From Rhizobium sp. Q54 (GTDB taxonomy: Bacteria; Pseudomonadota; Alphaproteobacteria; SHVZ01), in NCBI GenBank assembly GCA_945871425.1, contig CAMBVS010000014.1, positions 1 to 64,000 of the forward strand: DNA of 64,000 nt, read 5' to 3'. Below, one piece after another: positions 5,060 to 39,319 of the stretch. How positions within the stretch are numbered: position 1 is the first letter of the stretch; each line of letters begins with the position of its first letter. The notes under the pieces are model-generated. The model was not told where the DNA came from, made no database searches, and was given only the letters and a program-made list of their open reading frames with translations. The position numbers and the translations under genes are program-made.

Positions 5060-6616
5060 ATGCTCAGAAACTGGCTGGCAGTCGCCGCCGTACTCATTGC
5101 CGCGCCCGCCTCGGCCCAGGAGCTGAAGATCGGGCTCGGCGCCATGGCCCGCTCGATGGACCCGCACTTCTACAATTCGGGTCCCGACGTCGCCAACATG
5201 CTGCACGTCTACGACAAGCTGGTGCTCCAGGACGAAAAGCAGGGCCTGATCCCCGGCCTCGCCACCTCGTGGAAGGCGGTCGACGCGACCACCTGGGAAG
5301 TGAAGCTGCGGGAGGGCGTCACCTTCCATGACGGCTCGCCCTTCACCGCCGAGGACGTCGTCTTCACCGTCAAGCGTGCGGTCGACGTGCCGAAGTCGGG
5401 CTCGCCCTTCTCGCTCTACGTCAACACGATCAGGGAAGTGGTCATCAAGGGACCGCACCTGGTCCACCTGAAGACCGCCGAGGCCGCGCCGCTGCTGCCC
5501 TGGGACATTTCCACCTTCGCTATCATCTCGAAGAAGCACGGCGCGACCGCGGCGACCGAGGACTACAACTCCGGCAAGGCCGCCATCGGCACCGGCCCCT
5601 ACAAGCTGGTCTCCTACTCGCCCAACGAGAAGATCGTCTTTCAGCGGAACGACGCCTATTGGGGCCCGAAAGAGCCCTGGGCCAAGGTGACCTTCTCGCT
5701 GATCGCCAACCAGGCGTCGCGGACCGCGGCGTTCCTGGCCGGCGACGTCGATGCCATCGACACGGTGGCGACCCAGGACATCGCGCGGCTGAAGACCACC
5801 GCCGGCGTCGGCCTCTGGCCGTCGCTCTCCAACCGCGTCATCTACCTGATCCTGGACAGCCACCGCGACGTCGCCGAGCATGTCCGCGACAACGACGGCA
5901 AGGCGATGACGGTCAACCCGCTGAAGGATGCGCGGGTCCGCCAGGCCCTCTCGCTCTCGATCAGCCGCGAGGCGCTGGTCGACCGGATCATGGAAGGCGA
6001 AGGGGTGCCGACGGGCCAACTCGTCCCGCCCGGCATGTTCGGCCATGATCCGTCCCTCAAGACACCGGCACAGAACCTGGATGCGGGGAAGAAACTGCTG
6101 GCCGACGCCGGCTATCCCAAGGGTTTCCAGCTGACACTGCACGGCTCCAACGGCCGCTACCTCAACGATGCCAAGATCACCCAGGCGATTGGGCAGATGT
6201 TCGTCCGCGTCGGCATCGACACCAAGGTCGAGACGCTGCCGCGCGCCGTCTTCGGCACGCGTGGCAACGAGTTCGGCTTCTCGGTCGGGCTGTTCGGCTG
6301 GGGCACCGACACCGGCGAGGCCGCCTCGCCATTGAAGGCGCTGATCCAGACCCGCGACAAGGCCACCGGTGCCGGCGCCTCGAACCGCGGGCGCTACTCC
6401 AACCCCAAGATCGACGCGGTGATCGTCGAGGCGCTCCGTACCATCGACGACAAGAAGCGCGAAGCCCTGCTACAGCAGGCGACCCGCATGGCGATGGAGG
6501 ACGGCGCGATCATTCCGCTCTATTTCCAGGCCAACGCCTGGGCGACCCGCGGCCCGATCACCTGGACGCCGCGCACCGACGAATTCACCCTTGCCATGTC
6601 TGCGAGGCCGAAATGA
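5060..6616 (+). CDS. ABC transporter substrate-binding protein, family 5 (peptide/opine type)
   Basis: A 518-residue periplasmic binding protein with a cleavable signal peptide (MLRNWLAVAAVLIAAPASA, about residues 1-19). It has the SBP_bac_5 hallmarks: LVLQDEKQGLIPGLATSWK, REGVTFHDGSPFTAEDVVFT and GTGPYKLVSYSPNEKIVFQR. The family delivers di- or oligopeptides, opines or other solutes to Dpp/Opp-type permeases. No permease or ATPase gene lies nearby, so this is an orphan binding protein that must use a transporter encoded elsewhere or act as a chemoreceptor partner. It is coupled by an ATGA overlap to the following aminotransferase gene and preceded closely by the iminopeptidase pair. Confidence 0.9.
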   Translation: MLRNWLAVAAVLIAAPASAQELKIGLGAMARSMDPHFYNSGPDVANMLHVYDKLVLQDEKQGLIPGLATSWKAVDATTWEVKLREGVTFHDGSPFTAEDVVFTVKRAVDVPKSGSPFSLYVNTIREVVIKGPHLVHLKTAEAAPLLPWDISTFAIISKKHGATAATEDYNSGKAAIGTGPYKLVSYSPNEKIVFQRNDAYWGPKEPWAKVTFSLIANQASRTAAFLAGDVDAIDTVATQDIARLKTTAGVGLWPSLSNRVIYLILDSHRDVAEHVRDNDGKAMTVNPLKDARVRQALSLSISREALVDRIMEGEGVPTGQLVPPGMFGHDPSLKTPAQNLDAGKKLLADAGYPKGFQLTLHGSNGRYLNDAKITQAIGQMFVRVGIDTKVETLPRAVFGTRGNEFGFSVGLFGWGTDTGEAASPLKALIQTRDKATGAGASNRGRYSNPKIDAVIVEALRTIDDKKREALLQQATRMAMEDGAIIPLYFQANAWATRGPITWTPRTDEFTLAMSARPK

Positions 6617-37061: not shown

Positions 37062-38033
37062 ATGAGCGACCAGCCGGGCAGCATTCTCGTCTATGTCGGC
37101 CTCGACCGCTTCGGTGACGGGCTGATGAAGCTGCCCTTCGCCCGCGCGGCTCGCAGCACCTGGCCGGAGGCACGCATCACCTGGCTCGCCGGCAAGGGCG
37201 AGACGGTCTATGCGGGGCGGCTCCGCGATCTGGTCGCGGGTCTGATCGACGAAGTGATCGAGAAGGCCGGCATCGGGCTTGCCGCGACCGAGCTGCTGCA
37301 TCGGCCGCTGCCGGATCGGAGCTTCGACCTCATCCTCGACACCCAGCGCCGCGCGATGACCTCGCTGGTGCTGAAGCGCATCCGCCATCGCCGCTTCGTC
37401 TCCGGCACCGCCGGCTGGCTTCTCTCCGACGCCCGCCCGCCACGGCGGGAAAAGCCGCCGGCGATGATCCGCCAGATGCTCGACCTGATCGAGGCGGCGA
37501 GCGGCCACCCGGTCGAGCCGAGACGCGCCCGGGTCGAGCTGCCGGACGCGATCGAACGACAGGCGGCGGCCCTGCTGCCCGGCGGACCTCGCTACGTCGC
37601 GATCGTGCCCGGCGCCGGCGACAGGCGGAAATGCTGGCCGCTGGAGCGCTTCACCGCCCTCGGCGGCCGCCTGGAATCCCCGGTGGTCCTCCTCGGCCCC
37701 GACGAGACCGAGTGGCACGCCGGGCTCGCCGGCGCCTTGCCGCAGGCGCTGTTTCCGTTCCAGGCGACGGCGCTCGGCGCCGATCCCGCGCTCTCGCTGG
37801 CGGTGGCCCGGCGTCTGAAGGCGGCGGTCGCCAACGACGCCGGCATGGGCCACCTGCTGGCCGCCGGCGACTGCCCGCTGGTCTCGCTGTTCGGCCCGAC
37901 GCCGGCCGCGAAATTCGCCCCCTTCGCCGAGCGGCTGACGGTGATCGAGGCGCAATCCTTCGGCGGTGACGAGATGGCGGCGATCCCGGTCGACGCCGTC
38001 GCCGAGGCGGTCGACCGCCATCTCCGCGGTTGA
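37062..38033 (+). CDS. Glycosyltransferase family 9 (ADP-heptose:LPS heptosyltransferase type)
   Basis: A 323-residue GT-B fold protein. The acceptor-side start GSILVYVGLDRFGDGLMKLP and donor-side motifs PGAGDRRKCWPLERF and NDAGMGHLLAAGDCPLVSLFG match heptosyltransferases (WaaC/F). It would add heptose or a related sugar to lipid A core at the cytoplasmic face of the inner membrane. It is monocistronic or co-transcribed with the ACT gene; a promoter for the next unit overlaps its stop codon. Confidence 0.87.
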   Translation: MSDQPGSILVYVGLDRFGDGLMKLPFARAARSTWPEARITWLAGKGETVYAGRLRDLVAGLIDEVIEKAGIGLAATELLHRPLPDRSFDLILDTQRRAMTSLVLKRIRHRRFVSGTAGWLLSDARPPRREKPPAMIRQMLDLIEAASGHPVEPRRARVELPDAIERQAAALLPGGPRYVAIVPGAGDRRKCWPLERFTALGGRLESPVVLLGPDETEWHAGLAGALPQALFPFQATALGADPALSLAVARRLKAAVANDAGMGHLLAAGDCPLVSLFGPTPAAKFAPFAERLTVIEAQSFGGDEMAAIPVDAVAEAVDRHLRG

Positions 38034-38059
38034 CGGCCCGCCGTCCCGGCCGCTACCTT
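38030..38059 (+). promoter_or_regulatory. Candidate promoter of the ACT-domain gene leader
   Basis: TTGACG (38030-38035) includes the stop codon of the heptosyltransferase gene; after an 18-base spacer comes TACCTT (38054-38059). Transcription would start at about 38066, which is the GTG of the small leader open frame. Confidence 0.4.
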
Positions 38060-38065
38060 CGCCCC

Positions 38066-38116
38066 GTGGCAAACGGCCTGCGGAAGACCCTGCGAATTAC
38101 GACCCCGATCCTCTGA
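38066..38116 (+). CDS. Candidate 16-codon leader peptide rich in Leu, Ile and Thr
   Basis: GTG at 38066 opens a frame encoding (V/M)ANGLRKTLRITTPIL and then TGA. Eight of 16 codons are Leu, Ile or Thr. It has no Shine-Dalgarno sequence, but the predicted promoter would start transcription at the GTG itself, like the leaderless trpL leader known in Sinorhizobium. Its last codons and stop lie inside a strong hairpin, so ribosome position would change the RNA fold. Too short to judge by coding bias; the case rests on position, composition and structure. Confidence 0.4.
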   Translation: MANGLRKTLRITTPIL

Positions 38117-38165
38117 GGATCGGGTTGTCGTCGTTCGTCCGTGGTCTTCCGTCTTCAGGAGCCGT
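38073..38165 (+). promoter_or_regulatory. Structured leader (attenuator candidate) of the ACT-domain gene
   Basis: Three nested helices: ACGGC (38073-38077)/GCCGT (38161-38165); CGGAAGACC (38081-38089)/GGTCTTCCG (38143-38151); and an inner hairpin CCCGATCCTC (38104-38113)/GAGGATCGGG (38115-38124), extended by ACGAC (38099-38103)/GTCGT (38127-38131). The inner stem is followed by a T-richer stretch (TTGTCGTCGTT). The outer helix would bury part of the AGGAG ribosome-binding site at 38157-38161. This fits transcriptional or translational attenuation by the leader peptide. Confidence 0.55.
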
Positions 38166-38168
38166 GCC

Positions 38169-38471
38169 GTGTCCATATCCGTCGCCTATGACCGTCTTCC
38201 CGCCTCCTCCGAGGCGCTTCCCCACTGCTATTCGGTCCTCGCCCGCGCCGAGGTGTCGGTGATGCCGCGCGTGCTGGAGCTGTTCGTGAAGCGGGGCATC
38301 CTTCCCCGCCGCTGCCACGGCGTCGTCTCCGGCGCCGGGCATGACGAGCTTGAGATCGACCTCCAGGTCGACGGGCTCGACCTCGAGACCGCCGAGCACA
38401 TCCAGCGCTGCCTGGCCCAGCTGGTCCATGTCGAGCGCGTGCTGATGTCGCGGGCGCATCGCTGCGCCTGA
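38169..38471 (+). CDS. Orphan ACT-domain protein (IlvM/acetolactate synthase small-subunit-like)
   Basis: A 100-residue protein. After a ~18-residue N-terminal part comes a beta-alpha-beta-beta-alpha-beta pattern (YSVLARAEVSVMPRVLELFV, then CHGVVSG, LEIDLQV, then HIQRCLAQLVHVERVLM) that matches the single ACT domain of small acetolactate synthase subunits such as IlvM. No large subunit (ilvB/ilvG) lies next to it. It starts at a GTG behind AGGAG and overlaps the Nudix start by one base. I infer an amino-acid-sensing regulatory subunit, with modest certainty. Confidence 0.65.
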   Translation: MSISVAYDRLPASSEALPHCYSVLARAEVSVMPRVLELFVKRGILPRRCHGVVSGAGHDELEIDLQVDGLDLETAEHIQRCLAQLVHVERVLMSRAHRCA

Positions 38472-39319
38472 TGGCCTTCGTCGACCACATCCGGCGCTGC
38501 AACGCCTATGCGCCGGAGGACTTCGTTCCGTGGTCGATCTCGGGCGAGACCGCCGGGTATGTGCGCCGGACGCTGCGGCCGGTGCTGGCCGGATATGCCG
38601 GGCTGTTCGTCGACGACGGCGGGCTCGCCCTCGATCCGCGCCACGCCGATGCCGCCGCGCGCACGGCGGCGCTGGCGGAGACGGTCGACCGGCTCCACCG
38701 GGCCGGCCTCGTCCGGCACGTCACCGGCGAAACCGCGCCCGTCACCATCAAGGGCCGGCGAATTGCCGCGATCGAGCGAGGCGCGCTCGACGTCTTCGGC
38801 ATCGAGAGTGCAGGCTGCCATGTGAACGGCGTGGTCCGCCGGCCCGACGGTCTCCATCTCTGGATCACCCGACGCTCGCCGACCAAGCGCACTTTCCCGA
38901 ACCTGCTCGACAACTTCGTCGCCGGCGGCCAGCCCGACGGTCTCACCGTCATCGAGAATCTGGTCAAGGAATGCGGAGAGGAGGCGGGCGTGCCGCCGGA
39001 GCTCGCCCGTCGGGCCGTGCCCGTCGGCATCATCAGCTACGTGATGGCGAACGAGCCCGACATCGGCAATGGCCTCAGCCGTCACGTCCTTCACTGTTTC
39101 GACCTGGAGTTGCCGGGTGATTTCCGGCCGACGGCGGTCGACGGCGAGATCGCCGAGTTCCGGCTGCTGCCGGCGGCGGAGGTCGGCGCCATCATCGAGG
39201 GCGGCTGGAGCTTCAAGTTCAACTGCGCATTGGTGGCCATCGACTTCATGATCAGACATGGCCTGATCGATCCGGATCACCCTGACTATCTGGAAATCTG
39301 CCGGGGCCTCCGGCGGTGA
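38471..39319 (+). CDS. Nudix hydrolase with DUF4743 N-terminal domain
   Basis: A 282-residue protein. The N-terminal ~110 residues match DUF4743, and the Nudix box follows near residue 150: GGQPDG, then KECGEEAGV, with Lys in place of the usual Arg and the three key Glu kept. The segment DNFVAGGQP before the box is typical of this family, which includes the Nudix partner of eukaryotic thiamine pyrophosphokinases. It would hydrolyse a nucleoside- or thiamine-diphosphate-type compound. It is coupled to the ACT gene by a TGATG overlap. Confidence 0.85.
   Translation: MAFVDHIRRCNAYAPEDFVPWSISGETAGYVRRTLRPVLAGYAGLFVDDGGLALDPRHADAAARTAALAETVDRLHRAGLVRHVTGETAPVTIKGRRIAAIERGALDVFGIESAGCHVNGVVRRPDGLHLWITRRSPTKRTFPNLLDNFVAGGQPDGLTVIENLVKECGEEAGVPPELARRAVPVGIISYVMANEPDIGNGLSRHVLHCFDLELPGDFRPTAVDGEIAEFRLLPAAEVGAIIEGGWSFKFNCALVAIDFMIRHGLIDPDHPDYLEICRGLRR

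Follow-up and report, generated by a model that had tools for sequence, protein, structure and literature searches.

One locus in the window, the whole 64,000-nucleotide stretch of Rhizobium sp. Q54 DNA analysed here, raises the question of what controls an orphan ACT-domain gene, and by which signal. An initial annotation had proposed that an amino-acid-responsive leader, comparable to those of ilv and thr operons, lies ahead of this gene. The reading that we favour, at a probability of roughly 0.7, is an isoleucine-sensing leader-peptide control element that acts on translation and is one member of a modular family, with an isoleucine sensor ahead of ileS and most ACT genes and a leucine sensor ahead of leuA. 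The features of the locus are collected in Table 1.

Table 1. Predicted leader features and the genes that follow them, in window coordinates.
Feature	Position	Strand	Basis
-35 element TTGACG	38030-38035	+	Includes the stop codon that ends the upstream glycosyltransferase ORF; kept in 6/6 genus genomes
-10-like element TACCTT	38054-38059	+	Sequence; 6 nt 5' of the leader start codon; predicted leaderless transcript
Leader ORF GTG...TGA, 16 codons, VANGLRKTLRITTPIL	38066-38116	+	Frame, length and stop kept in 5 relatives; family pattern R-X-x-x-P
CGA-ATT, conserved Arg codon and single sensor codon (Ile)	38093-38098	+	CGA-ATT/CGA-CTT pattern of the family
P3 hairpin CCCGATCCT-CTG-AGGATCGGG, carrying the last leader codons and the stop	38104-38124	+	Covariation of the homologous helix, 90 sequences
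P2 helix, GCGAATTACGAC with GTCGTCGTTCGTC, sensor codons buried	38092-38139	+	MFE fold; C-G to U-A double change in L020
P1, leader codons 1-8 (38066-38089) with 38143-38172 (Shine-Dalgarno and ACT start codon)	38066-38172	+	MFE fold; matched-versus-swapped test, 26 families
Shine-Dalgarno AGGAG of the ACT gene	38157-38161	+	Sequence; 7 nt 5' of GTG
Orphan ACT-domain gene, 100 aa, IlvN-like	38169-38471	+	AlphaFold2 model, Foldseek, weak AHAS small-subunit profile match
DUF4743-NUDIX gene, its start sharing one base with the ACT stop	38471-39319	+	Pfam PF15916 and PF00293

The elements described in the initial annotation are all present at the positions given there. These comprise a promoter-like TTGACG/TACCTT pair whose -35 box lies over the upstream stop codon, a GTG frame in which 8 of 16 codons specify Leu, Ile or Thr, a strong hairpin holding the end of that frame (arms 38104-38113/38115-38124, effectively 9 bp with a 3-nt loop), a second helix enclosing it (arms 38081-38089/38143-38151) and an outer helix that reaches the ribosome-binding site and was found to cover the start codon of the gene too. 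The region 38030-38180 folds at -71.8 kcal/mol, compared with -51.2 ± 3.5 kcal/mol for its dinucleotide shuffles (z = -5.84; 0 of 200 shuffles equally stable). No Rfam covariance model matched the window region at E ≤ 1, and the leader regions of 13 loci were likewise without an Rfam match, one unrelated weak match falling elsewhere in L008.

Pfam returned no match for the ORF that this leader precedes. Its AlphaFold2 model (mean pLDDT 85) has a beta-alpha-beta-beta-alpha-beta order, and the best Foldseek match was E. coli IlvN bound to valine (5ypp; TM 0.70–0.78). Profile matches to acetolactate synthase small subunits were weak, with the window protein scoring 13.6 bits against the AHAS small-subunit profile PRK11895, under the curated cut-off of 119. 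As modelled, the fold is of the ACT type and nearest to IlvN. The ACT and DUF4743-NUDIX genes probably belong to the same operon, and since NUDIX proteins of a similar kind recur 3' of ACT homologues at several loci far from the genus (L062, L067, L069, L075), the pair may be a functional unit. Elsewhere the gene next to the orphan ACT gene on its 3' side is ilvA, encoding threonine deaminase (L009/L051, in G046), or ileS (L066, in G127). The genes regulated by the family (ileS, leuA and the IlvN-like ACT gene) are all related to branched-chain amino acids.

Within the genus, the -35 box and the leader frame, with its length and stop codon, are kept in five other genomes, in which the leader starts with ATG and not with the GTG of the window, and the leader peptides follow the pattern MA-x-G-[LV]-R-x-T-x-R-I-x-T-P-[IV]-[LH]. 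Promoter, frame and hairpins were retained in 6/6 genus genomes examined, and 95.5% of the base pairs of the whole-leader structure were kept; the two double changes seen do not suffice to establish covariation within the genus. The initial annotation would have been abandoned had frame and helices been lost in relatives; both are conserved, which supports a predicted leaderless ORF with conserved helices ahead of the orphan ACT gene. The Leu/Ile/Thr-rich composition, taken at first as the signal, did not hold up: codons 8 and 9 vary within the genus (K/T/I and L/Q/T), so richness in Leu and Thr is not the conserved trait, and it was rejected as the signal. What is conserved is a single ATT after CGA. 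An amino-acid-responsive role remains the best reading of the leader, with this one codon as its likely sensor in place of the Leu and Thr codons.

We then looked beyond the genus. ACT homologues found by protein search in seven more distant genomes (eight genes) all carried the same element just upstream, with the consensus CGA-[A/C/G]TT-NNN-NNC-CCGG and an ORF whose end, R-[I/L/V]-x-x-P-x-[L/S], falls within a GC-rich hairpin or runs past it. The sensor codon (X) lies directly 3' of CGA and 8 nt before the hairpin; in L013 the CGA stands one codon earlier than in the other distant loci. A pattern search located the element ahead of ileS and also, in the window's own genome, ahead of leuA, with CTT replacing ATT. 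The element is not specific to the orphan ACT gene. The second member in the window genome, ahead of leuA (L042; G000 contig C2:46281-46301, minus strand) reads MSTNRQVLELRLTNPAL with CGA-CTT, and near-identical matches to its pattern occur in three other genus genomes. Further ileS, ACT and leuA leaders came from a covariance model in which X was masked, and fifty leaders were tabulated.

To avoid selecting on the motif, ACT genes were gathered by protein profile; of the 318 genomes covered, 82 gave a match. A strict motif was present within 300 nt upstream in 49/64 of the ACT loci and 32/34 families, versus 23/320 shuffled controls, in a test that misses some true cases, including the window, because its hairpin is shorter than the minimum required. 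By this sequence measure, about three quarters or more of the orphan ACT genes of Alphaproteobacteria carry the element. Among leuA genes collected likewise (n = 30), CGA-CTT with a hairpin was found in at least 14. In ileS loci taken without selection the motif was present in 3/30, all ATT, so the ileS leader is confined to part of the class; the window's own genome has no motif upstream of its ileS, and both findings count against the reading that we favour. Several variants of the arrangement were seen. Tandem copies stand ahead of one ACT gene in L010/L046 (G039), L015 (G035) and L074 (G152); the order-level search around G039 covered three genomes only. In L155 and L164 (family f98), CGACTTA seems to lie within the hairpin instead of before it, and in L108/L110 (G039 contig C9:51162; G209 contig C1:241234) a CGAATT hairpin precedes an ORF resembling a divergent IleS-like protein.

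The identity of X agrees with the gene that follows. With X unrestricted (CGANNN), the codon was CTT in 13/15 leuA, ATT in 37/40 ACT and ATT in 2/2 ileS leaders, and the fifty tabulated leaders gave ATT for ileS (16/16) and CTT for leuA (4/4). A class-wide scan with X free listed ~120 matches, with ATT in 39, CTT in 6 and GTT in 2; no other codon was enriched among the matches listed, in a search whose pattern presumes this hairpin and would overlook sensors of other amino acids built on another hairpin. For leaders with this hairpin, sensors of amino acids other than Ile, Leu and, in a few cases, Val were set aside. Newly read matches comprised four ATT leaders before ileS, two CTT leaders before leuA and one ATT leader before a kinase-like gene. 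The last of these (L270; G251 contig C5, near 5979-6012) is a good CGA-ATT leader with a hairpin, and its ORF (GKSTL) has no obvious amino-acid link; it may be a chance match or a new target. Two ACT genes occur in one taxon; an Ile sensor precedes one of them and tandem Leu and Val sensors precede the other (L014, L015, L074), and the sensor codons of the tandem copies in G035 and G152 are CTT (Leu) and GTT (Val).

The codons themselves stand out. In genes close to the leader, 4.5% of Ile codons are ATT and 7% of Arg codons are CGA, so the choice made in the leader is itself unusual. Many leaders hold one relevant codon only (for example L048, MLAPARHERIPGPALA), some leuA and ileS leaders hold more, and the consecutive run of regulatory codons typical of trpL and ilvL is not seen; the leader codons do match the regulated amino acid, Ile for ileS and ACT and Leu for leuA. 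Part of the conservation of CGAATTA may be due to RNA pairing and not to coding. The identity of the sensor is well supported: isoleucine for ileS and almost every ACT gene, leucine for leuA.

An exact TTGAC lies 35–41 nt before the leader ATG in 27/50 leaders (27 of the 31 TTGAC found within 80 nt) and is usually followed by a TANNNT-like box some 6–9 nt before that ATG, a spacing that predicts transcripts whose first bases are the start codon. Caulobacter has many leaderless mRNAs (375; PMC4117421). The leader frame is open from its start to X in 50/50 leaders; upstream of R-X it spans 8–28 codons of freely variable residues, with a modal start-to-CGA distance of 9–10 codons.

At the RNA level, covariation supports the P3 helix, with pairing kept in 98.8% of cells, double changes in 116 cells versus 22 in shuffles and a score of 0.398 versus 0.181, for an alignment of 90 sequences fitted to the model that includes some reverse-strand palindromic matches. 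CGANTTA and CCCGG are the conserved nucleotides at P3. ACT leaders fold into a single long hairpin that joins leader codons 1–9 to the Shine-Dalgarno (SD) sequence and start codon of the gene, through P1 helices such as AUGACGG/CCGUCAU in L068 and AUGGCA/UGCCAU in L008. When leader halves were swapped between 26 families (17 in an earlier version of the test), P1 pairing was 0.634 for true partners versus 0.395 ± 0.038 for swapped ones and ensemble energy was -58.0 versus -49.9 ± 0.7 kcal/mol, with 0/20,000 permutations as good. The comparison shows co-evolution of the leader ORF with the region that it would mask, and SD and start codon are predicted to be sequestered by leader pairing in ACT leaders and more weakly in ileS leaders, for which the P1 signal is weak (p = 0.009). 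The ACT gene starts +70 to +93 nt from CGA in nearly all ACT leaders, and several ileS and leuA leaders lie 100–260 nt from their gene; given this distance and the weak ileS signal, the later steps of the mechanism may not be the same for ileS and leuA. Leader stops measured in ACT leaders are bimodal, falling inside P3 or 11–41 nt past the gene start and never between. In many ACT leaders (L008, L014, L065, L068, L069, L077, L079, L088 and several of L141–L182) the ORF continues across the hairpin and terminates 11–41 nt beyond the gene start in another frame.

These structures bear on whether control is exerted on transcription, as in the ilv and thr operons that the initial annotation invoked. 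In classical attenuation of the trpL/ilvL type, a stalled ribosome would block an intrinsic terminator between leader and gene, yet a terminator-like hairpin with a U-run was found in 0/28 ACT and 1/16 ileS leaders, no more than in shuffles. Helix 2 continues into the SD without a consistent U-tract, and P1 has co-evolved with the SD/start region; control looks translational. Leader codons matching the amino acid would suit transcription attenuation equally, as would U3–U5 after helix 2 in the window's relatives and the room that some ileS and leuA leaders have for a separate terminator, and it is the mechanism used by Caulobacter ilvBN (PMC4117421). On this evidence we consider it unlikely. 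A non-coding structured element, such as an RNA-stability or protein-binding hairpin with the ORF present by chance, would explain a strong hairpin with conserved nucleotides; the switching of X between Ile and Leu in step with the gene, the start codon at promoter distance and the invariably open frame from start to X leave it hardly credible.

The direction of the response is a further point on which readings diverge. Translation of the leader might instead open the helix and couple to the gene, so that sufficient isoleucine would mean ON. A locked SD requires an opener, and the many ACT ORFs that pass through the hairpin have a layout compatible with coupling, so this polarity is possible above all for leaders of the overlapping type. 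It is harder to reconcile with the remaining ACT leaders, in which a ribosome terminating in P3 lets P1 close, and ileS and leuA would be expected to rise, not fall, under shortage of their amino acid; overall it seems quite unlikely. Still less probable is action in trans by the short peptide or the released leader RNA, like peTrpL and rnTrpL of Sinorhizobium (a precedent cited in PMC10117765). A short leaderless ORF before an amino-acid gene in an alphaproteobacterium recalls that system, but the residues 5' of R-X are free in sequence and length and the element stays in cis with matched genes.

The translational, isoleucine-sensing reading that we prefer would operate as follows. The transcript would begin at or beside the leader start codon, and a ribosome would read about 9–10 codons and arrive at CGA-X. 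Once CGA occupies the P site and X the A site, the base of the GC-rich P3 hairpin would sit ~+12 from the first P-site base. This position is close to where the ribosome unwinds mRNA, and CGA is decoded by inosine-adenine wobble. On this geometry, decoding of X would be slowed and would respond to the level of charged tRNA-Ile or tRNA-Leu. Were X read fast, the ribosome would finish, P3, P2 and P1 would close, and the leader ORF would lock the SD and start codon (OFF). Were X read slowly, the stalled ribosome and a second one at the leaderless start would hold the 5' arm and leave the gene start open (ON), with the 9–10 codons from start to CGA approximating the spacing of two stacked ribosomes. 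The gene would most likely be expressed, then, when the matched amino acid is short. In silico folding of ACT leaders speaks in part against this scheme: one ribosome at X barely opened the SD/start region (mean unpaired value 0.36 either way), and a second, queued ribosome was needed for a partial opening (0.48), although with ribosome(s) placed the stability of the locked form fell from ~-60 to ~-17 kcal/mol. We also lean slightly towards a broader proposal, in which this would be a class-wide modular regulator: one codon after a rare CGA, 8 nt before a ribosome-braking hairpin, would report the charging of one tRNA, a codon change alone would re-address it (Ile to Leu, possibly Val), and the ORF would double as the start-locking strand.

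By its sensor the family would resemble amino-acid attenuation and by its output erm-type translational attenuation, and the terminator expected of the former was not found. Vitreschak is said to have described leader attenuators of alphaproteobacterial ilvIH in 2004. Like the ilvL, ilvBN and ilvIH attenuators, the new family has a leader ORF in cis whose codons fit the amino acid of the regulated genes. The ilvL and ilvBN attenuators differ in using a run of codons in place of one sensor codon after CGA at a fixed distance from a hairpin; the new family further departs from them in that no terminator was found, the SD and start codon appear to be occluded by the ORF itself, and other genes are targeted. 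A Caulobacter ilvBN leader attenuator is attributed to Tarleton 1994, as cited in PMC4117421. In erm-type attenuation, as proposed here, a stalled leader ribosome frees a sequestered SD, but the signal there is an antibiotic, whereas the new family would respond to charged tRNA supply from a predicted leaderless start, with the ORF as the anti-SD strand. Leader coding sequences (CDSs) before ileS (CCNA_03934) and trpS were reported in Caulobacter (PMC4117421, 2014). CCNA_03934 resembles the new family in being a translated short CDS before ileS in an alphaproteobacterium; it is presented only as a new CDS (negative control), and the motif, sensor codon and mechanism are absent from the text of PMC4117421. 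The trpL leader of Sinorhizobium meliloti, from which peTrpL and rnTrpL act in trans (PMC10117765), is likewise a leaderless ORF controlling an amino-acid gene, and unlike the new family it is a trp transcription attenuator with trans-acting products. Lopatovskaya 2010, as represented in PMC4833913, is a comparative survey of attenuation of amino-acid and aminoacyl-tRNA operons that includes mechanisms overlapping the ribosome-binding site, and part of the ileS or leuA leaders described here may already figure in it. Our search of open papers found no description of this leader family.

Together, since the same device, with an Ile-to-Leu codon swap, stands before matching genes across many Alphaproteobacteria, it looks like a simple, reusable amino-acid sensor. 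The leader ORF of the family is a tiny, previously uncatalogued reading frame, which a covariance model built from these data would let annotators detect together with the rest of the element. The Ile-to-Leu codon swap is a ready-made test of the sensor, and a compact reporter for amino acids could be made from the element. If true, this reading would explain the control of ileS, leuA and an unstudied IlvN-like gene in many Alphaproteobacteria, and the orphan ACT gene gains a likely physiological context in the supply of branched-chain amino acids.
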